Shown piece by piece: positions 150 through 38,387 of a stretch of DNA of 38,387 nucleotides (positions within the stretch are counted from its first letter, which is position 1; each line of letters starts with the position of its first letter). The position numbers and the translations under genes were made by a program. This DNA comes from Blastocatellia bacterium. Lineage in GTDB: Bacteria; Acidobacteriota; Blastocatellia; HR10; J050. The notes below the pieces were generated by a model. The model saw only the letters and a list, made by a program, of their open reading frames with translations, had not been told where the DNA came from and made no database searches. The stretch spans positions 1 through 38,387 of the forward strand of contig JALSQX010000063.1 of assembly GCA_026985075.1 (NCBI GenBank), read 5' to 3'.

Positions 150-3100
150 GTGGGAATTCAGGACTCGCTTCAGAGAGGATTGCGACGTCATATCTCTTCA
201 CCTCCATCAAGATTTTTCACGCTCCCATTATGTGGGAATTCAGGACTCGCTTCAGAGAGGATTGCGACTCAGCCCAATTCGTATTTCAGTTTGCGGTGAA
301 CATTGGTGGGAATTCAGGACTCGCTTCAGAGAGGATTGCGACACGATGCTCCCAGTACTCCCCTAGTATTGGGTGGGAGACGTGGGAATTCAGGACTCGC
401 TTCAGAGAGGATTGCGACGCTTAATCATGGCTTCGGCTAGGACGTTGAAGCGTTCGGGTGGGAATTCAGGACTCGCTTCAGAGAGGATTGCGACCGTAAG
501 AGTCAGCAAAGCTAGACCACCGCTTAATCATGGTGGGAATTCAGGACTCGCTTCAGAGAGGATTGCGACACGAACTGGAACACAAACTGAGCACAAAGTC
601 GACCCTCACGTGGGAATTCAGGACTCGCTTCAGAGAGGATTGCGACGCCCCGTGGAGGACTCCGAAGAATATTAAGAGATTGTGCGTGGGAATTCAGGAC
701 TCGCTTCAGAGAGGATTGCGACTTCGTCTGCTTCTTCGAGCACGTCGTCAGACGGCGTGTAGTGGGAATTCAGGACTCGCTTCAGAGAGGATTGCGACCG
801 GTATGACCGATATCCGTCCCCTCATGACCGATGCCGGAAAGTGGGAATTCAGGACTCGCTTCAGAGAGGATTGCGACCGAGCGCCGCTGCAAGACCCCCT
901 CCACGTCGATCTCGTAGAGGGTGGGAATTCAGGACTCGCTTCAGAGAGGATTGCGACTCGGCATCTCCGCTTTTGGAGGCCCGTCTCTCGTAGCAGGTGG
1001 GAATTCAGGACTCGCTTCAGAGAGGATTGCGACTTAAGCGCGCCGCGACTTTGTTGGCGATCTCCCGTTTGACCTGTGGGAATTCAGGACTCGCTTCAGA
1101 GAGGATTGCGACACGCTAGTTGTCTAGTTGTAGAGTGCCCTCAGTTCCGGGGCAGTGGGAATTCAGGACTCGCTTCAGAGAGGATTGCGACCGGTATGAC
1201 CGATATCCGTCCCCTCATGACCGATGCCGGAAAGTGGGAATTCAGGACTCGCTTCAGAGAGGATTGCGACCGAGCGCCGCTGCAAGACCCCCTCCACGTC
1301 GATCTCGTAGAGGGTGGGAATTCAGGACTCGCTTCAGAGAGGATTGCGACTCGGCATCTCCGCTTTTGGAGGCCCGTCTCTCGTAGCAGGTGGGAATTCA
1401 GGACTCGCTTCAGAGAGGATTGCGACCGCTACTAGTTATAAAGCGCCTTCAGCTCTGGCGCATAGTGGGAATTCAGGACTCGCTTCAGAGAGGATTGCGA
1501 CAATCCAACGACGCCGGTCGGGGTCCAAGGATTGCCCCTTGGTGGGAATTCAGGACTCGCTTCAGAGAGGATTGCGACGCCCCTTGCTTCAACAGAACGA
1601 ACACAATGTTCACAACTAGTGGGAATTCAGGACTCGCTTCAGAGAGGATTGCGACTAATCATGATTCACCTCCTTCACCTTGAGATGGGGATCGTGGGAA
1701 TTCAGGACTCGCTTCAGAGAGGATTGCGACCGGTACTCGGACCGAAACCATCGTTAGATGAGCGTGAGGACGTGGGAATTCAGGACTCGCTTCAGAGAGG
1801 ATTGCGACGGTCACAGATATAGACTCTCTGTGGTCTATCCCCTAGCGTGGGAATTCAGGACTCGCTTCAGAGAGGATTGCGACATCCCCGGAGAGCCGAG
1901 GACTCTCCGGGGAGTTGAGGGCGTGGGAATTCAGGACTCGCTTCAGAGAGGATTGCGACCAGTTTGCAAACTGTGTGGGACAGTGACTCCGTCCCACGCC
2001 GTGGGAATTCAGGACTCGCTTCAGAGAGGATTGCGACACAACGAATTGGAAGACGAACGCGGGCGTGAGTTTGCCGTGGGAATTCAGGACTCGCTTCAGA
2101 GAGGATTGCGACAATAGAGCGATAAAACCGCCGCCCTTTCGTCCTCCGGTAGGTGGGAATTCAGGACTCGCTTCAGAGAGGATTGCGACGCTCCGGCTCC
2201 GGGCCCCGACGGTCGGGGTTCTGTGGTGTGGGAATTCAGGACTCGCTTCAGAGAGGATTGCGACAGCTCGATTGGATTTTTACTATCATGCTACCTCCCT
2301 TCACCCGTGGGAATTCAGGACTCGCTTCAGAGAGGATTGCGACAGTGTCCTAACAACTCCCACCACTAGCTGGAAGACGAGCATGTGGGAATTCAGGACT
2401 CGCTTCAGAGAGGATTGCGACGGACCCCGAAGTAAATTCGGAGTCCTTTATCCATCTGCCTGTGGGAATTCAGGACTCGCTTCAGAGAGGATTGCGACAC
2501 AACTTGCCCTCTGCTTCCCAGGATTGCAGGACAGCGTGGGAATTCAGGACTCGCTTCAGAGAGGATTGCGACAGACGTAACGGCGGCTCTCTCGTCCTCG
2601 GGAAGTAAGTCCGTGGGAATTCAGGACTCGCTTCAGAGAGGATTGCGACGCCTAGCGGTCTGGCGCTAGGCAAAAAAAAATCCCCTGGGAGGTGGGAATT
2701 CAGGACTCGCTTCAGAGAGGATTGCGACAGCATGGATAATTCCAACAACAAACTGGAAAACAAAATTGGTGGGAATTCAGGACTCGCTTCAGAGAGGATT
2801 GCGACCCAGGTAAATTTGCGCCAACCCACCATCAAAAAAAATGTGGGAATTCAGGACTCGCTTCAGAGAGGATTGCAACTTGCCGATCCTCCAATCTAAC
2901 TTCTTGTCGCCACTTAAGGTGGGAATTCAGGACTCGCTTCAGAGAGGATTGCGACCCGAACCCTCAGACTCCATAATACGTATCACTTGATCAAGTGGGA
3001 ATTCAGGACTCGCTTCAGAGAGGATTGCAACACTGTCTTAATCCATCAGGAATAAACATCATATCATCACGTGGGAATTCAGGACTCGCTTCAGAGAGGA

Positions 3101-5035
3101 TTGCGACCTTCAGCTCATCAGAGTAAAGCGCTTTGACGGCGCGCGTGGGAATTCAGGACTCGCTTCAGAGAGGATTGCGACATATTCTGATCGACGTTTG
3201 GGAAATCTCTTCGAGTGCTGTGGGAATTCAGGACTCGCTTCAGAGAGGATTGCGACCAGTTTGCAAACTGTGTGGGACAGAGACTCCGTCCCACGCGTGG
3301 GAATTCAGGACTCGCTTCAGAGAGGATTGCGACCCTAAAATCCGCTCACGTAACTCATTGTGTGTCATCGCCGGTGGGAATTCAGGACTCGCTTCAGAGA
3401 GGATTGCGACTCCCCAGGGAAGTGAGTTGAGCTGAAGGCGACTCGACTAGTGGGAATTCAGGACTCGCTTCAGAGAGGATTGCGACTCCCCAGGGAAGTG
3501 AGTTGAGCTGAAGGCGACTCGACTAGTGGGAATTCAGGACTCGCTTCAGAGAGGATTGCGACCGTTCGTCCTCGGGCAGCTCTTCTAATCGCTCTCGCAA
3601 GTGGGAATTCAGGACTCGCTTCAGAGAGGATTGCGACCTTCCCCGTCCGGTGGAGAACCCCACGGACGGGGAAGGAAGTGGGAATTCAGGACTCGCTTCA
3701 GAGAGGATTGCGACCTAATCGCTCTCGCAATTCTTCGTGTGTCATCTCTACCGTGGGAATTCAGGACTCGCTTCAGAGAGGATTGCGACGGCTCCCGAGC
3801 GAGCGAGAGCCGGGGTCGGGTGGGGGGTGGGAATTCAGGACTCGCTTCAGAGAGGATTGCGACCCACAGCAAACTGGAAGCAGAAGTTTGCGTCTAACCT
3901 ACCGTGGGAATTCAGGACTCGCTTCAGAGAGGATTGCGACGAATTTCCCGTGTGGGACATACTCTGTCCCACACAACGTGCGTGGGAATTCAGGACTCGC
4001 TTCAGAGAGGATTGCGACGGTAACATTGCCTCGTAGTAGCCATGGACCTCGACGCGAGTGGGAATTCAGGACTCGCTTCAGAGAGGATTGCGACCACCGA
4101 CAACGAGTCGGTGGGGGACTTCGTCATGCCAATGCGGTGGGAATTCAGGACTCGCTTCAGAGAGGATTGCGACCGAACGATTCCCACTATGAGTTGAAAC
4201 ACAAACTGTGCGGTGGGAATTCAGGACTCGCTTCAGAGAGGATTGCGACCCTACGATGGCATCCGCTCCATCGTCCAGAGTGGTGGGCTTGTGGGAATTC
4301 AGGACTCGCTTCAGAGAGGATTGCGACCAGCTCTGTTGTGAACAGTTTTGACTCATCGACGGCGCTGTGGGAATTCAGGACTCGCTTCAGAGAGGATTGC
4401 GACTAGTGATAATAACGACGTAGATAATTCAGACTCACTTGTGGGAATTCAGGACTCGCTTCAGAGAGGATTGCGACGTCTTTTTGACCCCGATGGGGTA
4501 GCTTGATGTAATCTGTACGTGGGAATTCAGGACTCGCTTCAGAGAGGATTGCGACCTGAGAAATGTGGTTAATGGTGCCTTGCTTTTTCTACTCTGTGGG
4601 AATTCAGGACTCGCTTCAGAGAGGATTGCGACACACCGTGGGCAAAGATGCCCACGATGGCAGTCTCACTGCGTGGGAATTCAGGACTCGCTTCAGAGAG
4701 GATTGCGACGGTAAATTGAAAGACGAAGCTGGCCGTGAGTCGGCCCTCGAGTGGGAATTCAGGACTCGCTTCAGAGAGGATTGCGACCGTCACCTCCCTT
4801 TGATTTTTTTCACGACAATATTGTACTCAACGCAAGTGGGAATTCAGGACTCGCTTCAGAGAGGATTGCGACTCGTCGGGTGCTCCGATGGTCTTCAGGA
4901 TGCCGAGTAGTATGAGAGCCCGGGTGGGAATTCAGGACTCGCTTCAGAGAGGATTGCGACGCCTTGCATCAACAAGGCGCGTACGATTCCCACAACAAGT
5001 GGGAATTCAGGACTCGCTTCAGAGAGGATGGCGAC
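150..5035 (+). CRISPR. CRISPR array, 64 repeats and 63 spacers
   Basis: A 37-bp repeat begins GTGGGAATTC, has CAGGACTCGCTTCAGAGA in the middle and ends GGATTGCGAC. It recurs 64 times with spacers of mostly 37-43 bp (extremes about 45, 48 and 51 bp at 187-231, 4788-4835 and 4873-4923). Repeats are almost invariant. Those at 2843-2879 and 2995-3031 end TTGCAAC, and the last (4999-5035) has GGATGGCGAC. The degenerate copy on the right, and a 3' end (ATTGCGAC) that resembles the ATTGAAAC-type crRNA handle, suggest transcription left to right. No leader is seen, because the left edge is an IS end. The spacer triplet 799-840, 878-920, 958-996 recurs at 1192-1233, 1271-1313, 1351-1389. Spacers 3411-3449 and 3487-3525 are identical. 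No cas gene lies in the window, so the type is unknown. Long spacers and mRNA-antisense content favour type III. Confidence 0.99.
799..1426. repeat. Segmental duplication inside the array
   Basis: Three consecutive spacers with their following repeats (799-1033) recur exactly 393 bp downstream (1192-1426), separated by two unique spacers (1034-1075 and 1113-1154). This is best explained by unequal recombination between identical repeats. It could also partly be an assembly effect, but the unique spacers between the copies argue for a real duplication. Confidence 0.9.
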
Positions 5036-12347: not shown

Positions 12348-12559
12348 GGTCGCCTCCTTGTGTTCCTCCTCGTTGGAGGAGGCATGATCAAATCACGTCG
12401 TGAAAAGTGCCTCGTGGCAGGGAGGTTCTACTCTCTCCGGGAACGGTGTTTCAAGGACAGTTGTCGCAAAAGAAGTGGGACATATGTCTCATTGTGAGGA
12501 GTAACGGCGGGCTTCGCGGGTGGGAAGATGCAGTGAATGAGCTGGCCATGTAGCGTTCA

Positions 12560-12835
12560 ATTGACTCCTCCCCGCCGGCGAGCGGCGGGGCTTCTGGGAA
12601 GATGGAATATTGGCCTCTCTGCTAGCTGGCACCTGATTCCTCCCCGCCGACTGGCGGCGGGGTTTCCCTGTGGGGAGAGGTGTCTCGAGCGAGCTGGCAC
12701 CGTGACTCCTCCCCGCCGGCGAGCGGCGGGGTTTCTGGGAGATGGCATGCAGCTCTTTGGACGAGGTGACATCATGACGTTTCCCCGCGGACGAGCGGCG
12801 GGGTTTCCCTCCAGGCTCTGGGGCTTGTCCCCGGG
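12560..12835 (-). repeat. Hairpin-repeat island 1 (minus-strand orientation)
   Basis: On the minus strand this reads as at least four units of AAGCCCCGCCGCT-loop-GGCGGGGAGGAGTCA, about 70 bp apart. Stems lie near 12566-12590, 12640-12665, 12708-12730 and 12782-12802, with variable stretches between. Stem arms change together (GCCGGCGAGCGGC, GCCGACTGGCGGC, GCGGACGAGCGGC). Short ORFs here encode only the repeat (GKPRR..AGR) and are not genes. The unit resembles hairpins found at the right end of IS200/IS605-type elements, but no tnpA or tnpB is present. Confidence 0.85.
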
Positions 12836-12842
12836 GTCCGTG

Positions 12843-12978
12843 ACGTGCCAGCTCGTCCCCGGCGCGTTCCACATTCAGGAAAGCCCCGGAGCTGGACTCC
12901 GGGGATGGTTACGTGCCAGCTCGTCCCCGGCGCGTTCCACATTCAGGAAAGCCCCGGAGCTGGACTCCGGGGATGGTT
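12843..12978 (+). repeat. Exact 68-bp tandem duplication of a hairpin unit
   Basis: Two identical 68-bp units (12843-12910 and 12911-12978) each contain GTGCCAGCTCGTCC, GAAAGCCCCGGAG and CTCCGGGGATGGTTAC. The hairpin AGCCCCGGAG / CTCCGGGG is the plus-strand version of the units in 12560-12835. The remaining gap to the S9 peptidase gene (12979-13337) shows no gene; I see nothing firm in it. Confidence 0.9.
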
Positions 12979-13337
12979 ACTTTGTCAGCGGTGACGGGCG
13001 AGTGTTCAAGGGCGCTCTCATAGCATCCCTTCAGAGCCTCGCACGTCTGGAGAGTTGAATGCGCCTTGATCTCGCTCTGGACTTGTCCACCCCGGTAGTG
13101 TATTTTTTGCCTCCATGTGGTTCCCCCAACGTCATGAGATCGCGTTCAACCCACCATTATGGTCGGTGCGCCGGGGCAGCACGCTTCTTCAAGACACCGA
13201 TCAGGCGAGCATAGCTCAATCTCATGCTCGGCGCGCCGATGGCCAATGGCAGGTTGAACCGTCGATCGCAGGCTGAGTAGTCGGCGCGAGCTGGGGAACC
13301 CTCTCATGACCATCGACTTCAACTCGAGGAGGGCATC

Positions 13338-15335
13338 ATGAAACGAAGAGCGCTCATGCCACTCACTCTCTTCTGGCTGGTGAGTCTCAGCCTGGCCATT
13401 GCCGCCGCTCCGGCCAATCGCACCATCACGCCGGAGATCGTCGCTTCCATGAAACTGGTCACCGAAGTGGCCCTCTCTCCCGATGGCCAGTGGATCGCCT
13501 ACGTCGTGCGTTCGCCGCGCCAGGAGGGCGAAAAACCCGGCGGCTACCATTATCAGCTCTGGCTGGTGGATACCGAAGGGAAAGATCCCCATCCCTTGAC
13601 GGCCAGGGAATACAATGCCCGCTCCATACATTGGTTCAAGGACAGCAAGCGGATCGCTTTCCTCAGTCGCCGAGGGAAGAAGACTCAGCGGATCTACACC
13701 ATCCGCATCGATGGCGGCGAAGCGCAACCGCTCACGTCGGAAAAGCACAGCATCGCCAATTATGCCTTCTCTCCCGATGAGCAGCTCATCGCCTTCACGC
13801 GCCGGGACGCTCCCACTCCCGAAGAGGAAGAGAACAAGAGGAAAGGCCGGGACTGGCGCGTCGTCGGCCAGGATTTCAAGTATCTGCGCCTCTACATTCA
13901 CGATCTGGGAACCCGAGAGACGCGATTGCTCACCGATGAGAATCTCCACGTGACCGGATTCGACTGGTCGCCCGATGGTCGAGAAGTGATCTTCACCGCC
14001 AGTCAAACGCCGCTCACCGATCACACCTACATGTATCAGAAGATCTATCGCATCTCCGCCGCCGGCGGTCGCGCCGAGGTCGTCGTGCCCACCGAAGGGA
14101 AGTTGAGCCACGTGGCCTACTCGCCGAACGGTCGGCGCATCGCCTGGCTGGGCGCCGTCGATATCCACGATCCATCGGCGCAGAACGTGTTCATCGCGCG
14201 CCGGGATGGTCAAGGGAAGCGCAATCTCACCACCGATTATCAGGGCTCGGTCATCTGGTTCCACTGGCTGGACGATGAGACCATCGCCATGATCGGCATC
14301 GAAAAGACGGCGACGCGCGCCTATCGCCTGGACGTCAGCACGGGACGGAGAGAGCTCCTGTTGAGCAGTCGCCCGGTGTTCTCGGCGCTGAGCTTCGACG
14401 CCGACCATCGCGCCGCCGCATTCGCCGGCAGCACGCCGGTTCATCCCTCGGAGGTCTTTTATCTGGCTGGCAGGGACGAGCCGCGTCGATTGACGAACAA
14501 TAATCCCATCCTCGACGAACTGGAGCTGGCCGATCAATTCACCATCGAATATCAAGCTGACGACGGAACCACCATCACCGGGCTGGTCATGAAGCCGGTG
14601 GGATATCAAGAAGGACGACGCTATCCGCTCATCGTGAGCGTGCACGGAGGACCGGAAGCCGCCGTCCTCGATGGCTGGAACACCTACTACATTCGCTGGG
14701 GACAATTGCTCGCCGCTCACGGCTACGTCGTCTTCTGGCCCAATTATCGTGGCAGCACGGGCCGCGGCGTCGCGTATTCCAAGAAAGATCAGAAGGATCT
14801 CGGCGGCGCCGAATTCCGCGATGTGCTCGCGGGCATCGCTTATCTGGCCGATGAATTAGGCCTGGTCGATAAATCGCGCGTCGGCATGGGAGGCGGCTCT
14901 TATGGCGGCTACTTCTCGGCGTTGGCGGCGACACGGTATTCGGAGCATTTCAAGGCGGCCATCGATTTCGCCGGAATCACCAACTGGGTTTCTTTCCTCG
15001 GCACGAGCGACATTCCCATGGAGAACACGCTCGTCCACTGGGGATTCGAGCGTCCGTACGATCACCTGGAGGAGATGTGGAATGCTTCGCCGATGAAGTA
15101 CATCAAACAGAGCAAAACGGCCCTGCTCATCGCTCACGGCGCTGAGGATGAGCGCGTGCCCATCGGCCAGGCGTGGGAGATCTACACGGCGCTCCGCATC
15201 CTTGATCAGACGCCATACGAGTTCGTCATCTATCCCCGCGAAGGGCACGGGCTGGCCGAGCGCGAGCATCAGATCGATTTCATGAAACGCGTGCTCCGGT
15301 GGTTCGATACCTACGTGAAGGGAGCGAGCCGTTGA
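13338..15335 (+). CDS. Secreted S9-family (prolyl oligopeptidase-type) serine peptidase
   Basis: The product has 665 residues from ATG 13338 behind CGAGGAGGGCATC. A signal peptide (about 1-24) precedes a TolB/WD-like propeller (about 40-400, with repeats of the form SPDGQWIAYV, SPDEQLIAF, SPDGREVIF). The C-terminal alpha/beta-hydrolase domain (about 430-665) contains the nucleophile motif GGGSYGGYF (Ser521), the Asp of HGAEDERV (Asp604) and the His of REGHGL (His637), so the triad is complete. Members of this family cleave short peptides, often after proline, and the propeller restricts access to the site. It is probably periplasmic. It opens a run of four exported hydrolases, each with its own ribosome-binding site. 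The exact subfamily and specificity cannot be read from motifs. Confidence 0.93.
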   Translation: MKRRALMPLTLFWLVSLSLAIAAAPANRTITPEIVASMKLVTEVALSPDGQWIAYVVRSPRQEGEKPGGYHYQLWLVDTEGKDPHPLTAREYNARSIHWFKDSKRIAFLSRRGKKTQRIYTIRIDGGEAQPLTSEKHSIANYAFSPDEQLIAFTRRDAPTPEEEENKRKGRDWRVVGQDFKYLRLYIHDLGTRETRLLTDENLHVTGFDWSPDGREVIFTASQTPLTDHTYMYQKIYRISAAGGRAEVVVPTEGKLSHVAYSPNGRRIAWLGAVDIHDPSAQNVFIARRDGQGKRNLTTDYQGSVIWFHWLDDETIAMIGIEKTATRAYRLDVSTGRRELLLSSRPVFSALSFDADHRAAAFAGSTPVHPSEVFYLAGRDEPRRLTNNNPILDELELADQFTIEYQADDGTTITGLVMKPVGYQEGRRYPLIVSVHGGPEAAVLDGWNTYYIRWGQLLAAHGYVVFWPNYRGSTGRGVAYSKKDQKDLGGAEFRDVLAGIAYLADELGLVDKSRVGMGGGSYGGYFSALAATRYSEHFKAAIDFAGITNWVSFLGTSDIPMENTLVHWGFERPYDHLEEMWNASPMKYIKQSKTALLIAHGAEDERVPIGQAWEIYTALRILDQTPYEFVIYPREGHGLAEREHQIDFMKRVLRWFDTYVKGASR

Positions 15336-15549
15336 CCGAGTGGTTCGGGGATGGGAAGAGGCGAGCAGGCCGCTCACGTCATCCCATCCCTTTCTCGGGA
15401 ATCGTTCACCCGAACGGGGGAATGAAACCACCGAGATCGCCGGAGCCCGAGAGCGTCTTTTCCTGGCGTTCTCCACGTCCTTTGCGGTGACTTTTCCGGG
15501 GAATCGCCCATGAGCTCTTGCGCACGCCGAGCGACGAAAATGGAATAAC

Positions 15550-15566
15550 GCAAGCTGACAGCTTGC
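15550..15566. repeat. Small palindrome upstream of the M28 gene (copy 1)
   Basis: GCAAGCTG-A-CAGCTTGC forms an 8-bp stem 31 bp before the ATG of the M28 peptidase gene. It belongs to a small set of similar palindromes, each just upstream of a gene: 17110-17130, 19481-19505 and 29852-29876. Confidence 0.6.
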
Positions 15567-15597
15567 ACCACCCCTTTCCTTACAGGAGGCTGAAGAT

Positions 15598-17016
15598 ATG
15601 CATGTTCATAAGAGAGCCGTTGAACGTTGGATGAGGAACCGGTCTTGGATAGCCATGCTGGGTCTTTTCGTGGTGGGAAGTATGCTCTGGGGATCGGCAC
15701 GGTCGCCGATGCGCGCGCAGACGGTCATTCAGAAGCGCGACCCGGCCATCGTCGCCATGATCAATGAGGTCTCGGCCGAGCGCATCGAAGCGACCATTCG
15801 CAGGCTGGTGCGTTTTCACACTCGTCATTCGCTCAGCGAGACCGAGAGCGACGAGCGGGGCATCGGTGCGGCGCGCCGGTGGATCAAGGCGGAGTTCGAG
15901 CGATACGCCGAAGCTTCCGGTGGTCGCCTGCAGGTGGAATTCGATCCCTTCGTGGTGGAGCCAGATGGTCGGCGCATTCCTCATCGCGTGGAGATGAAAA
16001 ACGTGCTCGCTCGGCTGCCGGGAAGCGATCCCAAGGACGATCGCGTGCTCATCGTCAGCGGGCATTATGACTCGCGCGCCTCCGATGCCATGGACACCAC
16101 CAGCTTCGCTCCCGGAGCCAACGATGATGGTTCGGGAACGGCGGTGGTCATGGAACTGGCCCGCATCATGAGTCGCCGACGGTTTCCTGCCACCATCATT
16201 TTCGCCGCCGTCGCCGGCGAAGAGCAGGGACTCTATGGGTCTCGCCATCTGGCCGAGCACGCCAAGCGGGAGGGGTGGAACGTGGTCGCCATGATCACCA
16301 ATGACATCGTGGGAAACACCCTCTCCAGCGAGACGAATCTCCGGGATAACACTCATCTGCGCGTGTTCAGCGAGGGCATTCCGGCGGCCAATGCCGAGGC
16401 CTTCCTTCGGCGCATTCGCGCGACCGGGGGCGAGAATGATAGTCCGGCGCGGCAATTGGCCCGTTACATCAAGGAGGTGGGCGAGCGATACGTCGATCAG
16501 ATGAACGTGGTCATGATCTATCGTCGCGATCGCTTCCTCCGCGGAGGCGATCATACGCCGTTCAGTCGACTGGGATTCACGGCGGTGCGCCTCTCGGAGA
16601 TGAACGAAGACTTTCGCCATCAGCATCAGGATGTCCGCGTCGAAGACGGCGTTCAGTATGGCGATTTGCCCGAATTCGTCGACTTCGCCTACGCTGCTCA
16701 AGTGGCCCGGGTCAATCTGGCCGTCCTGGCCAATCTGGCCATGGCGCCGGGCGCGCCGCGCTCGGTGGGCATCGTGGTGCGCGGCTTGACCAACAAGACG
16801 ACCTTGCGATGGCAGCCGCCTGCGGGCCGCGCTCCGGCCGGATATTACGTCCTCATGCGGGAGACGACCAGTCCCATCTGGCAGCGCAAGATCTTCGTCG
16901 GCGACACCACCGAGGTGACGTTGCCCTATTCCAAGGATAATTATTTCTTCGCCGTGCAATCGGTCGATGCCGAAGGACACGAGAACTTGCCCGTGTTTCC
17001 CATCCCGGTGCGGTGA
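15598..17016 (+). CDS. Secreted M28-family metallo-aminopeptidase
   Basis: The product has 472 residues from ATG 15598 behind ACAGGAGGCTGAAGAT. The N-terminus has a basic stretch and a membrane-crossing signal segment (WIAMLGLFVVGSMLWGS). Zinc ligands of the M28 fold are present: GHYDSR (His156, Asp158), GANDDGSG (Asp176/Asp177) and AGEEQGLYGS (Glu208/Glu209). Later ligands are probably Asp in MITND and His in GGDHTPFS. The C-terminal approximately 90 residues (NKTTLRWQPP, YYVLMRETTSPIWQ) look like a fibronectin type III-like domain. The predicted role is removal of N-terminal residues from peptides outside the cytoplasm, complementary to the S9 peptidases on both sides. A palindromic repeat precedes it (15550-15566). 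Confidence 0.92.
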   Translation: MHVHKRAVERWMRNRSWIAMLGLFVVGSMLWGSARSPMRAQTVIQKRDPAIVAMINEVSAERIEATIRRLVRFHTRHSLSETESDERGIGAARRWIKAEFERYAEASGGRLQVEFDPFVVEPDGRRIPHRVEMKNVLARLPGSDPKDDRVLIVSGHYDSRASDAMDTTSFAPGANDDGSGTAVVMELARIMSRRRFPATIIFAAVAGEEQGLYGSRHLAEHAKREGWNVVAMITNDIVGNTLSSETNLRDNTHLRVFSEGIPAANAEAFLRRIRATGGENDSPARQLARYIKEVGERYVDQMNVVMIYRRDRFLRGGDHTPFSRLGFTAVRLSEMNEDFRHQHQDVRVEDGVQYGDLPEFVDFAYAAQVARVNLAVLANLAMAPGAPRSVGIVVRGLTNKTTLRWQPPAGRAPAGYYVLMRETTSPIWQRKIFVGDTTEVTLPYSKDNYFFAVQSVDAEGHENLPVFPIPVR

Positions 17017-17109
17017 GGGGGCGCACGGCATCCCGGTGACGGAGAGGTCATTGATGGTCAGAGAATCATCCATGAGCTCGCCCGCGCCATGAACGATGAG
17101 AATGAAGTA

Positions 17110-17130
17110 GCGCGAGATGACATCTTGCGC
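17110..17130. repeat. Small palindrome upstream of the second S9 gene (copy 2)
   Basis: GCGCGAGATG-A-CATCTTGCGC, followed by CACATCTTCGGAGGAGT. The stem is kept with different bases from the other copies (one mismatch tolerated). The flank GATGAGAATGAAGTA resembles the flank of copy 1 (CGACGAAAATGGAATAA), so the repeated unit is longer than the stem. Confidence 0.7.
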
Positions 17131-17168
17131 CACATCTTCGGAGGAGTCTCTCATGGCCTTGCAAGCCA

Positions 17169-17280
17169 CACTGAGGGAGTGAAAAGAGAACGTCGGTCGT
17201 CCGTCATCTTCGGCGGATCACCGGAAAAGACGCCGATCAACACTGAGGGAATGAAAAGGGAACGTCGGTCGTCCGTCATC
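17169..17280 (+). repeat. Direct repeat (2 x 40 bp, 72-bp period) upstream of the S9 gene
   Basis: CACTGAGGGAGTGAAAAGAG, then CGTCGGTCGTCCGTCATC at 17169-17208, recurs at 17241-17280 with two changes, ending 32 bp before the next ATG. A small ORF across it (17089-17316) consists mostly of the repeat and is not believed. It could be an operator pair, or a remnant of an intergenic repeat. Confidence 0.8.
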
Positions 17281-17312
17281 GGTCGTCCGTCGTCTATTTT
17301 CGAAGGAGGTGG

Positions 17313-19448
17313 ATGATGATGAGGTATCACTTCCACTGGGATCGATTCATTCGTTACGTGATTCTGGTGACGGCGTTCGGATTGATGGGATCGAGCGCCG
17401 CTCGGGGTCAATCGTTCACTCTGGAGGATGTCCTCAGCGCGCCTTTTCCGACGCATCTGGTAGCAGCGCGGCGCGCCAATCGCATCGCCTGGGTGTTCAA
17501 CGAACGCGGCGTGCGCAACATCTGGACGGCGGCGGCACCGGACTTCGCGCCGGTGCGCCTCACTGACTATCGCCAGGACGATGGCCAGGAATTGAGCGAT
17601 CTGCAGTTGACGCCCGATGGATCGATTCTGGTCTACGTGCGCGGAGGAAATCCCAATCGCGCCGGCGAGATTCCCAATCCGACCAGCGATCCACGAGGCG
17701 CCGAACAGGCCATCTGGGCGATCAGAACCAGCGGAGGAGCGCCCTGGAAGCTGGCCGAAGGTCATCACCCGGTCATTGCGCCGAGTGGCGATCGCCTGGT
17801 CTTCATCCGACGAGGGCAGATTTATCAGCTCCCGCTCGTTCCGCCCGAGACGAATGCTGAGGGGAAATTGGAGCCGCTCTTCAGAGCGCGCGGTCGGAAT
17901 GGGTCGCCGCGCTGGTCGCCCGATGGTCGGCGCGTCGCCTTTGTGAGCGATCGAGGCGATCACAGTTTCATCGGCGTTTACGATCTCCGGGAGCAGCGCA
18001 TTCGCTGGATGGAACCCAGCGTCGATCGCGATATGCTGCCCGCCTGGTCGCCCGATGGTCGCCGGTTGGCGTTCATGCGCATGCCCGGCCGGCGCAAGCA
18101 CGAGCGACGCAGTCTGGTCACCGGATATCCTTTCGCCATCTGGGTCGTTGACGTAGAGACGGGACGAGGAAGCGAGATCTGGCATTCGCCGGGTCGGGAT
18201 GGCGGATTCGCTCAATATTATCCCGGTGAACCGCTCCGCTGGGCGAGCGATGATCGACTGTTGTTCTACTCCGAGCACGAAGGGTGGCTCCACATTTACG
18301 CCATTTCGGCATCCGGCGGCTCGCCGATCGATCTCACGCCCGGCGAGAGCATCGCCGAACAGAGCAGTCTCTCCGTCAATGGAACCGTCCTCTACTACAG
18401 CAGCAATCGAGGCGACATCGATCGGCGGCACATCTGGAAAGTCCCCACTGGAGGGGGATCGCCGGTTCGATTGACGGCGGGGACGGGCATCGAGACCTAT
18501 CCCGTGGTCTTGGCCGATGGAGAGCATGTGGCGTTCCTCGCTGCCACGGCCACGCGACCGCCGGCAGTGAGCCTCATCGCGACCGCCGGCGGGCGGCCCC
18601 GCCTCATTGCGCCGCAACGACTCCCTGAAGCTTTCCCCGAGAAGCAACTCGTCGCGCCGCAACCGGTGACCTTCCGCGCCGCCGACGGATGGGAGATTCA
18701 CGGCCAGCTCTTCCTGCCGCGGGGAGCCAAACCCGGCGATCGCCGACCGGCGGTCATCTTCATGCATGGTGGGCCCATCCGCCAAATGCTTCTCGGATGG
18801 CACTACATGGGCTATTACGCCAATGCCTACGCCATGAATCAATATCTGGTCAGCAAGGGAATGATCGTTCTCTCGGTCAATTACCGATCGGGCATCGGCT
18901 ATGGCCGGGCGTTCCGTCAGGCTCCGCATCAAGGGCCGCGGGGAGCGTCCGAGTATCAGGACATCGTCGCCGCCGGGCTCTATCTGCGTCATCGGCCGGA
19001 GGTCGATCCCGATCGCATCGGCCTCTGGGGCGGATCGTATGGGGGATACCTGACGGCGCTCGGGCTGGCTCGCGATTCCGATCTGTTCGCCGCCGGCGTC
19101 GATTTGCACGGCGTTCACGATTGGGCGTTCCGGGCGACGGACTTCTCGCCGGGCGGCGGATGGGGATTGGAGAAGCGCGATCTCGATCTCGCCTATCAGT
19201 CGTCACCGGTGGCCGATCTGGCGTCGTGGAGTTCTCCCGTGCTGCTGATTCACGGCGATGACGATCGCAATGTGCTGTTCGGGCAGACCGTCGATCTGGT
19301 CCAGCGGTTGCGCGAGCGGAACGTGCACGTAGAGGTTCTCGTGTTCCCCGACGAAGTGCACGGGTTCTTGCGCTACGAGAGTTGGCTGCGGGCTTATCGT
19401 CGGGCGGCTGAATTCTTCGAGCGCTTCCTGGGCGCTCGGAGAGAGTAG
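17313..19448 (+). CDS. Secreted S9-family serine peptidase (second copy)
   Basis: The product has 711 residues. ATG 17313 is the first of three in-frame ATGs behind CGAAGGAGGTGG. A signal peptide is followed by a TolB-like propeller (about 45-430; SPDGRRVAFV, SPDGRRLAFM) and an alpha/beta-hydrolase domain (about 450-711). The triad is Ser575 (GGSYGGYL), Asp651 (IHGDDDRNV) and His683 (DEVHGF). It differs clearly from the peptidase at 13338, so it is not a recent duplicate. It is closer in layout to dipeptidyl-peptidase-like members, but the exact specificity is not readable. It lies between the M28 peptidase and the deacylase in the same orientation; spacings of 297 and 82 bp argue for partly independent transcription. 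Confidence 0.93.
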   Translation: MMMRYHFHWDRFIRYVILVTAFGLMGSSAARGQSFTLEDVLSAPFPTHLVAARRANRIAWVFNERGVRNIWTAAAPDFAPVRLTDYRQDDGQELSDLQLTPDGSILVYVRGGNPNRAGEIPNPTSDPRGAEQAIWAIRTSGGAPWKLAEGHHPVIAPSGDRLVFIRRGQIYQLPLVPPETNAEGKLEPLFRARGRNGSPRWSPDGRRVAFVSDRGDHSFIGVYDLREQRIRWMEPSVDRDMLPAWSPDGRRLAFMRMPGRRKHERRSLVTGYPFAIWVVDVETGRGSEIWHSPGRDGGFAQYYPGEPLRWASDDRLLFYSEHEGWLHIYAISASGGSPIDLTPGESIAEQSSLSVNGTVLYYSSNRGDIDRRHIWKVPTGGGSPVRLTAGTGIETYPVVLADGEHVAFLAATATRPPAVSLIATAGGRPRLIAPQRLPEAFPEKQLVAPQPVTFRAADGWEIHGQLFLPRGAKPGDRRPAVIFMHGGPIRQMLLGWHYMGYYANAYAMNQYLVSKGMIVLSVNYRSGIGYGRAFRQAPHQGPRGASEYQDIVAAGLYLRHRPEVDPDRIGLWGGSYGGYLTALGLARDSDLFAAGVDLHGVHDWAFRATDFSPGGGWGLEKRDLDLAYQSSPVADLASWSSPVLLIHGDDDRNVLFGQTVDLVQRLRERNVHVEVLVFPDEVHGFLRYESWLRAYRRAAEFFERFLGARRE

Positions 19449-19480
19449 CATCAGGCTCGCCAGGAAGAGCGAAAGTGAGA

Positions 19481-19505
19481 TGGCGCAAGATGGCATCTTG
19501 CGCCA
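19481..19505. repeat. Small palindrome upstream of the deacylase gene (copy 3)
   Basis: TGGCGCAAGATG-G-CATCTTGCGCCA is a perfect 12-bp stem with a one-base centre, located 25 bp before the ATG at 19531. It is the best-preserved member of the four-copy family. Confidence 0.8.
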
Positions 19506-19530
19506 CACTCTCTGTTCGAAAGGGGGACTC

Positions 19531-21213
19531 ATGCGTCGTCGAACGTTTCTCAAGCAAAGTGCCTTTGCTCTCGTGGGAACGGCGTCATCTCGCTGGCCGT
19601 GGATTGAAGTGACGCCGTCATTCGATGTGGTCATCAAGGGCGGGACGATCCTCGATGGCACCGGTGGTCCGGCCTGGCGCGCCGATCTCGGTACCCGCGG
19701 CGATACCATCGCGGCCATCGGCGAGATCGCCGCTTCCCAGGGTCGACGCGCCGTCGATGTGACCGGATTGTATGTCGCGCCCGGATTCATCGACATCCAC
19801 ACGCACTCGGACGGTCAAATTCTGGCCTATCCCACGGCCGACAGCCGCGTGCGGCAGGGCATCACGACCGAAATCACCGGTAACTGCGGGTCTTCGGCGG
19901 CCCCACTGGTGGGCGTCAGAGCCGACGAGCGGCGGCGCGCCTGGCGAGAGCGAACGGGTCTGGACGCGTCCTGGACCGATGTCGCTTCGTATTTCGAGCG
20001 ACTGGAGGAAGTGGGCATCTCCATCAATCAGGCGTTGTTGCTCGGTCAGGGGACATTGCGTCAGAATCTCATCGGATTGGTCGACCGTCCGCTCACCGCC
20101 GATGAGTTGCGCGTCATTCTCAGAGCCGTCGAGGAGGGCATGGAGCAGGGAGCGCTCGGGCTCTCCACCGGCCTGGAGTACACCCCTGGCCAATATACGC
20201 CGACCGAAGAGATCGTGGCCATGGCGCGGGTCGTAGCGCGGCGCGGTGGTTTCTATGCTTCGCACATTCGCAATGAGGAAGCGGCGCTCCTGGAAGCCAT
20301 CGACGAAGCGATCGACATTGGCCGACAGACCGGCGTGCGAGTGGAGGTCTCTCATCTGAAGGCTGCCGGACGACCGAACTGGAGGAAACAGCGCGCGGCC
20401 ATCGAGCTCATCGAATCGGCGCGCAAGGATGGGGTGAACGTGCTCGCCGATGCCTACCCCTATACGGCCTATTCCACCGGTCTGACCATCTTCCTGGAAG
20501 CGTGGGCGCGGGAGGGAGGAGCGGCGGCCATCGTCGAGCGCTTGCGTCAGCCCTCGGCGCGGGCGCGCATCCGTAAGGAGGTCGAAGCGCGGGTGGAAAG
20601 CGATCCTGGAGATTACAAGCTCATCGTGATCAGTCGCGTTCAGACGACGGCGAATCAGTGGACGGTGGGAAAGAATCTGGTGGAGATCGCCGACCGGTGG
20701 CGCGTGGAGCCCGTAGACGCTTTATTGCGGTTGATCGAGGAGGAGCGCGGCGCCGTCTCATTCATCGGACACGGGATGAGCCCTCAGAACGTGGAGATGG
20801 TCCTCCGGCATCCGCTGGTGATGATCGGATCGGACGGATCGAGCATGGCTCCCGTGGGTCCGGCGGCGCGCACCCGGCCGCACCCGCGGTCTTATGGAAC
20901 CTGCCCGCGCGTACTCGGAGTGTATGTGCGCGAGCGGAAGCTCTTCGATCTGCCAACAGCCATCAGGAAGATGACCAGCATGCCCGCCGATCAAGCGGGC
21001 ATCGTGGATCGCGGGCGCATCGCTCGGGGCATGAAGGCCGATCTGGTCATCTTCGATGCGCGGACGGTGAGAGATCGAGCCACGTTCCAGAATCCGCATC
21101 AGTATCCGGTGGGAATCGTTCATGTTCTCGTCAATGGAACATTCGTCGTCGAGGACGGGGAACACACGGGAGCGCGCCCCGGCCGGGTACTCCGAGGATC
21201 GTGCCGGGGATAG
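19531..21213 (+). CDS. Exported N-acyl-D-amino-acid deacylase (D-aminoacylase)
   Basis: The product has 560 residues from ATG 19531 (GGGGGACTC upstream). The earlier in-frame ATG at 19480 would run through the palindrome at 19481-19505 and is rejected. The N-terminus MRRRTFLKQSAFALVG is Tat-like (RR-x-F-L). The amidohydrolase fold shows FDVVIKGGTILDGTG, HTHSDG (His90, His92), the cysteine metal ligand of D-aminoacylases in TGNCG (Cys119), His245 (SHIRNE), His275 (SHLK) and Asp435 (GSDGSS). The family hydrolyses N-acyl-D-amino acids, and some members act on related N-acyl or dipeptide substrates. Beside three peptidases it probably processes D-residue or acylated products from cell-wall or peptide debris. 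It ends the hydrolase run. Confidence 0.9.
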   Translation: MRRRTFLKQSAFALVGTASSRWPWIEVTPSFDVVIKGGTILDGTGGPAWRADLGTRGDTIAAIGEIAASQGRRAVDVTGLYVAPGFIDIHTHSDGQILAYPTADSRVRQGITTEITGNCGSSAAPLVGVRADERRRAWRERTGLDASWTDVASYFERLEEVGISINQALLLGQGTLRQNLIGLVDRPLTADELRVILRAVEEGMEQGALGLSTGLEYTPGQYTPTEEIVAMARVVARRGGFYASHIRNEEAALLEAIDEAIDIGRQTGVRVEVSHLKAAGRPNWRKQRAAIELIESARKDGVNVLADAYPYTAYSTGLTIFLEAWAREGGAAAIVERLRQPSARARIRKEVEARVESDPGDYKLIVISRVQTTANQWTVGKNLVEIADRWRVEPVDALLRLIEEERGAVSFIGHGMSPQNVEMVLRHPLVMIGSDGSSMAPVGPAARTRPHPRSYGTCPRVLGVYVRERKLFDLPTAIRKMTSMPADQAGIVDRGRIARGMKADLVIFDARTVRDRATFQNPHQYPVGIVHVLVNGTFVVEDGEHTGARPGRVLRGSCRG

Positions 21214-21389
21214 AGACGTCGTCCGCTGAAGGTGCTATTCAGAGATGAGAGCGTCAGGCGAGGAGGGCTGGCGGGTTTCGTGAGATGAAGCGGAGAAACC
21301 CTATCGCTTGCCGGCAGGGAGGGTCAGTAGCTTCTTCCAAAGGTTACTTCGCATGAGGAGGACACACCGCAGCTTGCTGGTGGGGGTCG

Positions 21390-22060
21390 CTTCACACCAG
21401 GGGGAACCCTCGCGGCAGGGCGGTGGGGAGGAGTCAGTTGGGCGCTCAGGGAGCGATGGAAGTAACGATCCCCGGAGGCGAGCTCCGGGGCATTCAAGGG
21501 GGGAGGCGGGTGAGAGTAGCTGACAACGTCACCAGACCCCGGAGGCGAGCTCCGGGGCTTGAAGCGGAGAAGCTCCCTGGCAGGACGGCGGGGGGAGTCA
21601 CGGAGATTGCTTCTCTCAAGGTCGCTTCACACCAGGGGGAAGCCTCGCCGCTTGCCCGCGGGGAGACGTCACGATGTCAGCTAGTCCAACGCCCTCTCCT
21701 CACACAATGAAGCCCCGCCGCTGGTCGGCGGAGAGGGATCGCTTGTCAGCCAGTCCGGAGGGATTTTTCTCCGCTTTGGGAAGCCTCGCGGCTCGTCCGC
21801 GGGGAGGAGTCATTATGACCAGCTCATTTGCCGTGCTCCTTTTCCACGAGGAAACCCCACAGCTTGTCTGTGGGGAGGAGTCAGAGAGTCGGCTAGTTCG
21901 AGACGTTCTTCTTTCCGCAGGGAAGCCCCGCCGCTGGACGGCGGGGAGGAGTCAGGTGTCAGCTAGTTCGAAGTACCTCCCTCCACAGGGAAGCCCCGCG
22001 GCTGGACGGCGGGGAGGAGTCATTATGACCAGCTCGTTCGCGGTGCTCCTTCAGGAGCCG
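21390..22060 (+). repeat. Hairpin-repeat island 2 (largest)
   Basis: The 864-bp gap after the deacylase gene holds about ten hairpins. From about 21638 six units follow at a period of about 70 bp: GGGAAGCC, stem, loop, stem, GGGGAGGAGTCA, three bases, TG-CAGCTAGT, then 16-22 variable bases. Stem arms covary (CCCCGCCG/CGGCGGGG, CCCCACAG/CTGTGGGG). Near 21463-21493 and 21536-21562 two copies with CCCCGGAG/CTCCGGGG stems lie in the opposite orientation. No protein gene is credible here; the ORFs seen translate the repeat itself. Confidence 0.9.
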
Positions 22061-22077
22061 CGTGATCGAATGCCCGT

Positions 22078-23751
22078 TCAGTTTCGACGGAGCCGGATGA
22101 GCCCGCGCGCCGGAAGAATCTCCAGCCGGGACTCCTCGTCGCGAGTCTCGATCATGATATCCATGTTTCCGTCATCATCGTCAAGGAGACTCAGAGGAAG
22201 GCTCACGGTCACCAATCCCGGTTGACCGAAGTCGAAGTGGATGAGCTGTTCGATCTCAAGCGGCCGTCCGTCACTTTCCTGGAGTTCGACGCGAATGGAC
22301 AAGGGCGCGTTGGGGAAAGACCGCTGAGCGGAGAAGGTGAGAACGTAATCGGCGCCAATTGTCGTATCAGCATTGGATACGGGCGAGCCGGTGAGCGGAT
22401 CTTGATCGCTATCCAGATACACGTTGGTGGTGACTGTGGCCGGATTGGGTGACAGCCGCGTGTAATCAATGCTGAGGAGCACGATGTCGCCATTCTCTCC
22501 CTGGGAAAAGGAGAGACAAGCGCGGGCGCCGATGAGGGCCATCTCCTGTGGGTTGGGCTCCGATTCAGGGCGCGCGTCGACCGGTTCGGTATCGCAACGG
22601 AACGGCGCTTGGACCCGTTTCTCTCCGAGGACGAGCGCGCCATCGTCGGGGAGAGCGTCGATCTCGCGTGTGCTCGTCAGGAGGCTGTCGACGCGGAAGA
22701 AGGCGTTCGCCATCGGATGAGCGAGGAGGGAGAGGGGCATCTGGAAATGCACGTTGCGGCCTTGACGCCAGGCCATGCAGTCGTTGGCGAAGGCCAGCCC
22801 GAATCCGAGTTCTACCGGTTGCTGGCGAGCAGATGGTCGCCGGATCAACACTGGAGCCAGGGGACGCTGAGGATGGATGGTGAATCGAATGACCTCGTCG
22901 GCTCCCATCAGCGGCGGCGAGAGCCCTCCGTTGGCAAACCCGGTGGCCAGCCGGCGGTCGCCGTCCAGGTAGATCTGACCGATGATCTGGCCGTTGCGCG
23001 GGAAGAGTCGGCGATCATCGAGATCATGATTGTAGGAGAGCATGATATCCAGGCGATCGCCGATGACGCGAAGAGTCACAGTGGCCAAATCAGGGAAACT
23101 CACCTCCTGAAGGGCATCGGAGACGACGAGATCGATGGAGTCGTCGCCCGGTTGGGGAACTTTCCATTGCGCCGAGCCACCGGCATAGTCGATCACGCCG
23201 AAGTCGGGAACGCGATCGAATACGGTGTCGCCCACCTCCCCCGTATCGGTGGCCACGAAGAAATCGAAGACCGACACCCCACCGAATAACTCGCCGAGGA
23301 GGCCGATGCGGATCACATTTCCATCGACTTTGAATCGCATCTTGTCAGTCTTGGGAGGGAAGAAAATCTGCATGCCTGAAGCGGTGGACACCTCGACGCG
23401 GACCTGGAGACCACGACCCGTATCGGTGAGCGTGTACTTGACCAGAGCATCGATGCCCGGGACGGGCGAGACTGTGGGGGCGCCGGTCGTGGGATCACGA
23501 TCTACATCGATGAACACGTAGCCGACCAGAGGGGGCTGGATGGGGGCAGCATAGGTCAGGCGCATGCGCATGCCCGATCCATCCGGCGTGGGCATGGCGT
23601 CGATTTCGACGATATCGGCTTGATTGTCGTGATCGCCGACGGCATCCATGACCTGAGCCGATGCATTCCCGGTCCAGACCGAGAGCCAGAACCAAACCAA
23701 AGCGAGCAGGAGTAATCGATCGTGCGTCGACGACGTCGTGATCAATTTCAT
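22078..23751 (-). CDS. Secreted hypothetical protein with three beta-rich D-x-D repeats
   Basis: The product has 557 residues. ATG 23751 sits behind GGAGGGAGGC, and an in-frame start 12 bases upstream is rejected because it would contain that site. A hydrophobic signal segment (LLLLALVWFWLSVWTGNASA) is followed by three similar modules. Each has a strand ending in an acidic turn: YVFIDVDRDPTTGAP (about residue 75), QIYLDGDRRLATGF (about 265) and NVYLDSDQDPLTGSP (about 430). The Y-x-D-x-D-x-x-x-TG signature suggests calcium-binding edges of a jelly-roll or CBM9/DOMON-like fold. No catalytic motif is visible. The gene stands alone between two hairpin islands. A carbohydrate- or matrix-binding role is a guess from fold pattern only. 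Confidence 0.75.
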   Translation of the reverse strand: MKLITTSSTHDRLLLLALVWFWLSVWTGNASAQVMDAVGDHDNQADIVEIDAMPTPDGSGMRMRLTYAAPIQPPLVGYVFIDVDRDPTTGAPTVSPVPGIDALVKYTLTDTGRGLQVRVEVSTASGMQIFFPPKTDKMRFKVDGNVIRIGLLGELFGGVSVFDFFVATDTGEVGDTVFDRVPDFGVIDYAGGSAQWKVPQPGDDSIDLVVSDALQEVSFPDLATVTLRVIGDRLDIMLSYNHDLDDRRLFPRNGQIIGQIYLDGDRRLATGFANGGLSPPLMGADEVIRFTIHPQRPLAPVLIRRPSARQQPVELGFGLAFANDCMAWRQGRNVHFQMPLSLLAHPMANAFFRVDSLLTSTREIDALPDDGALVLGEKRVQAPFRCDTEPVDARPESEPNPQEMALIGARACLSFSQGENGDIVLLSIDYTRLSPNPATVTTNVYLDSDQDPLTGSPVSNADTTIGADYVLTFSAQRSFPNAPLSIRVELQESDGRPLEIEQLIHFDFGQPGLVTVSLPLSLLDDDDGNMDIMIETRDEESRLEILPARGLIRLRRN

Positions 23752-23829
23752 GCCTCCCTCCAAGTGATGCAGGAGCTAGACTAGCACATCTCACTCTTCG
23801 TTGCCAGAGAGGTGATGCCTGCCGAGCAG

Positions 23830-24275
23830 AGGGAGCCCCCAGCTTGTCGGCGAGGGAGCGAAGGAAGTAACGATTCCCGGAGGCGAGCTGCGGGGCTTTC
23901 CCGAATGAAGTGAGCGCGTCGTGAACTAGCTCACACACGTCACCAGACCCCGGAGACGAGCTGCGGGGCTTGAAGCGGAGAGGCCTCGCCGCTTGACGGC
24001 GGGGGGAAGTCGCGGTGTCGGCTCGTTTCGAGGGTTCTTCCCTCTCTCACAGGGAAGCCCCCGTTCTGTGGGCTCGGCGTCTGCCGAAGCTGTCGTTCTT
24101 CCCTCTCTCACAGGGAAGCCCCTCGCATTCCGGAGACCGGCTCCGGGGCCTGAAGCGGAGGAGCTCCATGGCTGGTCCGTGGGGAGATATCACGGTGTCG
24201 GCTCGTCCCAAGGGATATGTCCTCCTCCGGGGAAGCCCCGCGGCTCGCTGGCGGGGAGGGTCAGGTGTCAGCTCG
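23830..24275. repeat. Hairpin-repeat island 3
   Basis: About eight hairpins of the same family fill the gap between the two divergently transcribed secreted-protein genes. Examples are CCCGGAGGCGAGCTGCGGGG near 23877, CCCCGGAGACGAGCTGCGGGG near 23947, CCTCGCCGCTTGACGGCGGGG near 23985, CCGGAGACCGGCTCCGGGG near 24130, and CCCCGCGGCTCGCTGGCGGGG near 24236. Conserved GTGTCGGCTCGT and GGTCAGGTGTCAGCTCG stretches follow some stems. A 55-bp segment (TCGTTTCGAGGGTTC or similar, then TTCCCTCTCTCACAGGGAAGCCCC) is partly doubled at 24039-24120. Confidence 0.85.
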
Positions 24276-24422
24276 TGCAGCTCATGATCGCACTCCCACT
24301 TCTGGAGCCTCACAGAACTCGGAGAGCGAAGCGAATCGATGAGGTTCTCGCCGCCGTCAGCGTCCCCTTGTGCCTTCGGGCTCCCAGCGTCTGGCTGATG
24401 CGAGGCGTTCCGTTCAATCCTC

Positions 24423-37826: not shown

Positions 37827-37953
37827 GATTTCCTCTCAGTTACGACGACACGGGATCAACCTCACGATTTGGACTCCCCACGGTCGGATGGTCTACGAAA
37901 TCATGGCCGTAGTGTGAGGCGTTGGCCTTGCGCTATGGGCGAAGGGGGAAGCG

Positions 37954-38387
37954 ATGAGGCATAGTGTCATTCACCTTAGGAAGCGGGGAGTCATTCACCT
38001 TACAAAGCAGGGCGTCATTCACCTGACAGTGCTCACCTTGATGGTGGTGATGGTGGGTGCGGTGATGAAGGAAGTGGGGATTGGTGTGAGGGTTGAGGCG
38101 ACCGGGGGTGTGGTTGTGGTGGCGGCCGGGCGGGGGCGTCCGTGGGTGAATTTGCGGGATGGGGTGGAGGTGGAGGCCGAGTATGCCGGGCCGGCAGGGT
38201 TGCGGCAGGTGATGGAGCAGGCCGTGGTGGTGCCGCGGGCGCTGGCGGCGGGCGATGTGGATGAGGATGGGGTATTGGATGTGGTGGTGGGGTATGCGGG
38301 GCCCCGGGGAGGGGTTTTGGCGGTGCATCGGGGGAATGTGGGGTTGCTGTTTCCCTATGGGGAGGGGGATCGGCGGCCGTTTATGCC
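37954..38387 (+). CDS. Secreted FG-GAP/VCBS-like protein, N-terminal part
   Basis: The frame is open from ATG 37954 (GAAGGGGGAAGCG upstream) to the window edge, giving 144 residues. The start holds a triple repeat, VIHLRKRG, VIHLTKQG, VIHLTV, encoded by three copies of GTCATTCACCT. A hydrophobic signal-like stretch follows (VLTLMVVMVGAVM). A mature part then contains LAAGDVDEDGVLDVVVG and GGVLAVHRGN, the D-x-D-x-D-G calcium-binding turn of FG-GAP/VCBS propeller repeats. Codon use is extreme (GTG and GGG dominate), unlike the other genes here, so recent transfer or unusual strand composition is possible. The other frame on the minus strand (38328-37933, His/Pro-rich) is a shadow. Confidence 0.6.
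   Translation, partial: MRHSVIHLRKRGVIHLTKQGVIHLTVLTLMVVMVGAVMKEVGIGVRVEATGGVVVVAAGRGRPWVNLRDGVEVEAEYAGPAGLRQVMEQAVVVPRALAAGDVDEDGVLDVVVGYAGPRGGVLAVHRGNVGLLFPYGEGDRRPFM

Follow-up and report, generated by a model that had tools for sequence, protein, structure and literature searches.

What are the islands of short hairpin repeats that lie between genes on contig JALSQX010000063.1 of a Blastocatellia bacterium (Acidobacteriota; assembly GCA_026985075.1), and which activity could have built them? Three such islands are present in the window, i.e., the whole stretch of DNA that was analysed (positions 1 to 38,387; 38,387 nucleotides), and a sequence-only reading had likened them to the ends of IS200/IS605 elements and to guide-bearing arrays. 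Our analyses suggest that the islands are probably arrays similar to repetitive extragenic palindromes (REPs), and that they serve as the DNA substrate of a stand-alone tandem-Y1 transposase with one composite active site. We observe the units and their spread, a linked gene, complementary loss of active-site residues in its product, a lineage-specific pairing of gene and repeat, and changes in unit number; the way in which the enzyme may act on the repeats is modelled on its family.

A profile built from the units recovered 22 of them in the window, on both strands and with a few weak-scoring ones. The three islands described from the sequence are real and lie where they had been placed (7 units in 12548-12989, 10 in 21293-22041 and 5 in 23865-24282), and alignment confirmed that the units, earlier counted as around twenty, share a foot-stem-loop-stem-tail layout. 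Both orientations had been noticed, and they occur in all three islands. What had been overlooked is that the hairpins of the type CCCCGGAG...CTCCGGGG, found at 21459-21560 and 23865-23971, are members of the same family in reverse orientation. Hence, the islands are two-orientation mosaics, as in bacterial interspersed mosaic elements (BIMEs). The exact doubling reported within 12843-12978 was also found, as a 68-bp unit. The features are as follows:

12540-13001, both strands: Island 1, between divergent genes, 7 units (profile).
12540-12598, 12612-12670, 12680-12739 and 12752-12811, minus strand: units of Island 1.
12876-12933 and 12944-13001, and a weak one at 12820-12860, plus strand: units of Island 1.
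12843-12910, identical to 12911-12978, plus strand: exact 68-bp tandem duplication with one hairpin per copy (direct reading).
21400-22046, both strands: Island 2, between convergent genes, 10 units including a weak one at 21293-21328 (minus strand).
21400-21458, 21635-21694, 21705-21763, 21776-21836, 21847-21906, 21918-21976 and 21986-22046, plus strand: units of Island 2.
21440-21498 and 21506-21565, minus strand: units of Island 2.
21918-21976, plus strand: best unit of the window (73.3 bits, model R1), with foot GAAG, stem CCCCGCCG/CGGCGGGG, loop CTGGA and tail AGGAGTCAGGTGTCAGCTAGT.
23865-24285, both strands: Island 3, between divergent genes, 5 units.
23976-24035, 24156-24215 and 24228-24285, plus strand: units of Island 3.
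23865-23902 and 23919-23971, minus strand: units of Island 3.

In the alignment, each unit consists of a foot of 4 nt (most often GAAG), a stem of 8 bp, a loop of 5 nt, a conserved tail of about 20 nt and a variable spacer. The stem arms (CCCCGNNG / CNNCGGGG) begin with CCCC and close with GGGG, and they are followed by the tail, with the consensus AGGAGTCA..TG.CAGCT[AC]GT. Among 366 well-formed units of this genome, nearly all open the stem with CCCC, the feet include GAAG (172), CAAG (34), AAAG (27), CAGG (24) and AATG (23), and GCT[AC]G, where present, lies mostly 15-17 nt past the stem. Stem pairs 1-4 and 8 are nearly invariant in this set, while pairs 5-7 vary with compensation. The pair test found 96.3% of stem cells paired and both sides changed in 35 cells; the covariation score of 0.320 (0.136 in shuffles) was reached by none of 500 shuffles, and it was at most 0.098 when the pairing partner was slid. 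The stem arms therefore covary, in line with the claim made from the sequence.

The regular period and the variable inserts (16-30 nt) beside a conserved hairpin would also be expected if each unit combined a guide for a TnpB- or IscB-like nuclease with a scaffold RNA such as an omega-RNA. We consider this extremely unlikely. Of 197 head-to-tail spacers, 60% resemble a spacer of another island with a similarity of 0.8 or more, versus 2% of shuffled spacers; hence, the spacers, which are C/T-rich on the side of the following unit, were copied along with the units rather than acquired, and they are unlike the unique acquired spacers of clustered regularly interspaced short palindromic repeats (CRISPR). 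Moreover, the TnpB C-terminal domain PF07282 had no match in the genome (six control genomes gave matches), no Rfam family matched within the window, and the repeat-tied enzyme is a Y1 transposase in every lineage. Comparing the inserts with viral and plasmid DNA had been proposed as a check; Island 2 matched no phage or plasmid record. A search for the IscB domain likewise gave no match but was uninformative, since its control gave none either. Taken together with the sharing of spacers between islands, the missing TnpB and Rfam matches tell against the proposed comparison with guide-bearing arrays.

A genome-wide count of the units had been proposed as a check. Within 386 kb around the islands, out of a 5.2-Mb genome, we counted at least 395 units in 55 islands, which are mostly intergenic and hold 1 to 27 units each; the count is a lower bound. 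A covariance model detected at least 150 units in the genome (E <= 7e-7), and the genome contains 193 copies of the motif GGGGAGGAGTCA when one mismatch is allowed, which exceeds chance, as the reversed pattern has 50 copies. Neighbouring units are arranged head-to-tail in 227 of 340 pairs, most commonly at a distance of 66-75 bp. Long open reading frames (ORFs) contain 24% of unit midpoints but 78% of bases, as judged from crude ORF calls in which the repeats themselves create spurious frames. Genes flanking the islands are oriented in tandem in 25 cases, divergently in 14 and convergently in 10; hence, the islands are not strictly tied to gene ends.

This distribution bears on the possibility that the arrays change only by replication slippage or recombination of direct repeats, the units being inert relics or elements with a host role in transcription ends, mRNA stability or gyrase binding. 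Such a view accommodates the exact tandem duplication in Island 1 and the variable unit number of orthologous islands, and hairpins with GC-rich stems could act in RNA. However, spread to 55 islands exceeds local slippage, the islands are not confined to gene ends, and from one lineage to the next the gene and the repeats differ in sequence in concert, with the layout kept. We therefore regard this explanation as quite unlikely.

The enzyme that we connect with the repeats is encoded outside the window. A profile search gave two Y1_Tnp matches in the genome, both within one ORF of 286 aa. Thus, the earlier statement that the window holds no transposase or TnpB stands, but a Y1 transposase gene is present elsewhere in the genome:

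Contig C95:24052-24912 (locus L003:6053-6913), outside the window: transposase gene, single copy.

Dense units of the same family occupy both sides of the gene (L003 2690-4350, 5750-6010 and 6880-7410). The C-terminal codons of the transposase (L003:6880-6913) consist of a reverse-oriented repeat unit, which indicates that the array has run into the gene end. The 286-aa protein passes the IS200/IS605 TnpA model NF033573 (120.6 bits, cut-off 55) and fails the RAYT (REP-associated tyrosine transposase) model NF047646 (44.1 bits, cut-off 80). In its predicted structure (predicted template modelling score, pTM, 0.70; low confidence at residues 98-129) the C-domain fold is best matched by the ISDra2 and IS608 TnpA proteins (Z 15-16). 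The N-domain also resembles RAYT 4er8 in structure (Z 8), but no more than unrelated ferredoxin-like folds do, and we made no use of this match. The N-domain contains the motif YLRHQETHH (Y---Q--HH signature), and the HUH (His-hydrophobic-His) motif is given as DHxH. Hence, by sequence and fold the enzyme is an IS200-type TnpA, yet the system is not an IS200/IS605 element.

These results support the likeness to IS200/IS605 ends noticed earlier, given that the enzyme is an IS200-type Y1 transposase and that the units have a foot, a hairpin and a downstream conserved site. The same protein type and layout could be taken to mean that the units stem from an IS200/IS605 insertion sequence, either as solo ends or as degenerate copies, or that they are a miniature inverted-repeat transposable element descended from such a sequence. 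We find this very unlikely, as there is a single gene copy flanked on both sides by the same inverted units, not by distinct left and right ends, and as the units are multimerised and their stems maintained by covariation. A further explanation would be that the repeats form a common REP/BIME family and that the enzyme is a conventional RAYT with one domain (class 2 TnpA_REP) and no novelty of its own. In accordance with it, palindromes occur between genes in high copy number and in either orientation, and they surround a Y1 gene; however, the GT[AG]G foot is absent, the protein has two Y1 domains and fits the IS200 rather than the RAYT model, and the Y1_Tnp search, which would have shown a recognisable second, single-domain RAYT gene, showed none. 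For the enzyme as found, the ordinary-RAYT explanation is already refuted, and we consider it quite unlikely for the system as a whole.

What distinguishes the enzyme is the way in which its two domains share the catalytic residues. Among 11 aligned tandem proteins, none has an intact HUH in the N-domain (the second His is replaced by R, Q or L), and all keep the N-domain Tyr and the C-domain HUH. The C-domain Tyr is present in one of the ten proteins that reach this position, the others having F (six), W (one) or V (two). Residues Y115, Q119, H200 and H202 are invariant in the alignment. In IS608 TnpA the third metal ligand is a Gln about four residues past the Tyr (PMC6006769), the position at which the retained N-domain Q119 sits, and the active site is assembled in trans, with the Tyr of one monomer and the HUH of the other (PMC5934647). 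Placed on the profile, the solved single-domain TnpA 2f4f falls with its HUH half on the C-domain and with its Tyr half on the N-domain. Since the N-domain has no HUH and the C-domain mostly no Tyr, exactly one trans-type site would be left in the fused protein. Judged by the residue pattern, each chain thus has one composite active site, like one of the two sites in the IS608 TnpA dimer. In a domain tree, all N-domains form one group (82/85, i.e., moderate support) and all C-domains another (100/99), which fits one ancient fusion. One fused chain might act alone, or two chains might pair two composite sites.

Full-length tandem homologues, 37-44% identical, are present in other genera of the class, more were found in a further family of the class, and two divergent ones belong to another family of the phylum. 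Nine genomes of the phylum provided 14 loci for comparison, and at 12 of these the gene is flanked by repeat arrays or by inverted units, mostly with a 66-73 bp period; the same units are inverted on either side of the gene, and their tails are directed towards it wherever both sides are readable. The flanking hairpin stems are lineage-specific, as exemplified by CCACCAAC/GTTGGTGG, CCACCCAC/GTGGGTGG, CCCCCAAC/GTTGGGGG, CCACCTGC/GCAGGTGG and CCGCCGGG/CCCGGCGG, while the layout is constant: a foot of four nucleotides, the second being A in almost every lineage (AATC, AATA, GATA or GATG in other genera), a 7-8-bp stem, a 3-5-nt loop, and a tail of 19-21 nt that ends mostly in CTAC or CTAG. At one locus (G040:C533, L090) the array has a 66-bp period, and a simple test recovered no perfect stem. 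The same genome contains a separate array with a 48-bp period (L088:5200-5890; hairpin GCCCTCCGTTAGGAGGGC, both orientations), which is outside the unit family. The only relative from named genomes (L034) had no Y1 ORF in the matched stretch and was dropped. When plasmids and phages were searched with the tandem protein, the matches listed comprised only stretches of about 350-500 bp, the size of a single-domain TnpA.

Differences are also seen between closely related genomes. A congener (G001) carries 96 units, and the stretches that it shares with this genome are about 85-93% identical; no units were found in the one genome of a neighbouring genus that was searched. Orthologous islands of the two congeners differ in unit number, with 15 versus 1 (L155/L174), 1 versus 4 (L157/L186) and 2 versus 1 (L150/L187).

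By analogy with the enzyme family, the most likely course of binding, cutting and joining, with the cleavage site and the timing, may be pictured as follows. The hairpin would form where the DNA is single-stranded, e.g., on the lagging-strand template, and would be bound by the single-chain pseudo-dimer, in which the N-domain would give the Tyr and the Gln metal ligand and the C-domain the HUH. The cut might be made close to CTA[CG], the conserved sequence that closes the tail of about 20 nt, and the 5'-phosphotyrosine end could then be joined either to a different unit or to a new position between genes. Units would thereby be added or removed head-to-tail, with the spacer travelling as a passenger. 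The guide-to-cleavage-site pairing rule known from IS608/REP work (PMC8266576) predicts CT for the NANG feet found here but GT for the AATC feet of relatives; hence, we did not rely on it.

Several observations weigh against this interpretation. Cleavage and transposition are deduced from the enzyme family and neither was observed, and arrays could grow without the enzyme by slippage or recombination. In this very genome the C-domain Tyr survives (AYLRKC), with the Gln four residues on absent; a frame-broken copy (L221) likewise retains the C-domain Tyr. The N-domain helix bearing Tyr115 is predicted with a per-residue confidence (pLDDT) of about 40, and the composite site is therefore not visible geometrically in the predicted structure: the residue pattern fits a site shared in trans between the Y1 domains, while the model is too weak at the Tyr helix for distances. 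Two of the 14 loci lack an array (L122 and L218, the latter stopping at a contig edge). Finally, the transposase gene was not detected in the fragmented assembly of G001 despite its 96 units. In G001, the contig that corresponds by synteny to the upstream region of the gene breaks off within an array, and the neighbouring genes were not found either; gene loss and an assembly gap are thus indistinguishable. Some G001 contigs end within hairpin arrays (e.g., L170 2746-3201). Possibly, hairpin repeats break assemblies and hide the transposase gene.

The closest parallel in organization is the REPtron formed by REP/BIME elements and TnpA_REP (RAYT), which also comprises hundreds of short footed palindromes, mostly between genes, a single-copy Y1 gene embedded in the repeats, and a conserved CT near the hairpin. 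Here, in contrast, the GT[AG]G foot is absent, a conserved tail of about 20 nt and head-to-tail arrays are present, and the enzyme is a tandem fusion nearer to IS200 TnpA. With the IS200/IS605 TnpA proteins (IS608, ISDra2) it shares the protein family, the fold, a hairpin with a downstream site and, going by the residue pattern, an active site common to two domains. Unlike the IS608/ISDra2 homodimer with two sites, it has two domains in one chain and one predicted composite site, and unlike IS200/IS605 elements, it has a single gene copy, no left/right-end element and no TnpB found (which is optional in that family). Among the TnpA_Y1 subclasses of Quentin et al. 2018 (PMC6006769), subclass 1.2 has the Y---Q--HH signature, found here in the N-domain, and a low copy number; however, its members are single-domain proteins of about 148 aa, mostly from Cyanobacteria and Bacteroidetes and generally without hairpins. 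Class 3 of the same study (Planctomycetes, Acidobacteria) is flanked by atypical REPtron-like structures in high copy number (about 600 in Solibacter) but consists of single-domain proteins of about 178 aa with NHVH, Y----Q and a CnGA foot, compared with DHxH, Y---Q, a NANG foot and a 286-aa tandem protein here. The CGTC-tagged REPs (Di Nocera et al. 2013, PMC3733652) are similar in having an 8-9-bp stem and a 4-5-nt loop; they differ in their stem, which starts with AT pairs, their CGTC foot and CCA tail, the rarity of clusters and the lack of a linked transposase, and were ruled out by stem and foot.

Further repeats are present in the window. A long CRISPR array with a 37-bp repeat (GTGGGAATTCAGGACTCGCTTCAGAGAGGATTGCGAC), the last copy of which is degenerate, spans 310-5035, and no cas gene beside it was recognised by eye in the ORF list of the window. 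A second dispersed repeat (ACACTGAGGGAGTGAAAAGAGAACGTCGGTCGTCCGTCATC) lies at 17090-17290 in two similar copies and has more than 20 matches in G001, mostly 80-91% identical, and a short motif (GTCATTCACCT) occurs in several copies at 37950-38040.

Thus, the islands are best read as part of a system akin to a REPtron whose enzyme is of a new kind, one that works like REP/RAYT but stands outside the RAYT class. With more reserve, we lean towards the view that this enzyme represents a new class, a single-chain asymmetric Y1 transposase that arose by fusion of two IS200-type TnpA copies and complementary loss of half-sites, and that makes and remodels head-to-tail hairpin arrays with a conserved 3' tail; a selfish IS200/IS605 transposase would then have given rise to a REP-type system by a route independent of the known RAYTs. 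No description of a Y1 transposase with tandem domains or in single-chain form was found in the literature searched, from which most subscription journals were missing. The published TnpA_Y1 census dropped proteins of unexpected length, taking them for gene fusions or annotation errors (PMC6006769); hence, a tandem class could easily have been missed.

How REPs spread is an open question. E. coli TnpA_REP appears to be monomeric, while its IS200/IS605 relatives act as dimers whose active sites are shared. Direct evolutionary evidence for catalysis in trans comes from a natural fusion with only Tyr and Gln kept in one half and only the HUH in the other. The system also offers a ready object for tests, with a single chain and a single active site, a well-defined hairpin whose tail is conserved, and congeners with arrays of different lengths.

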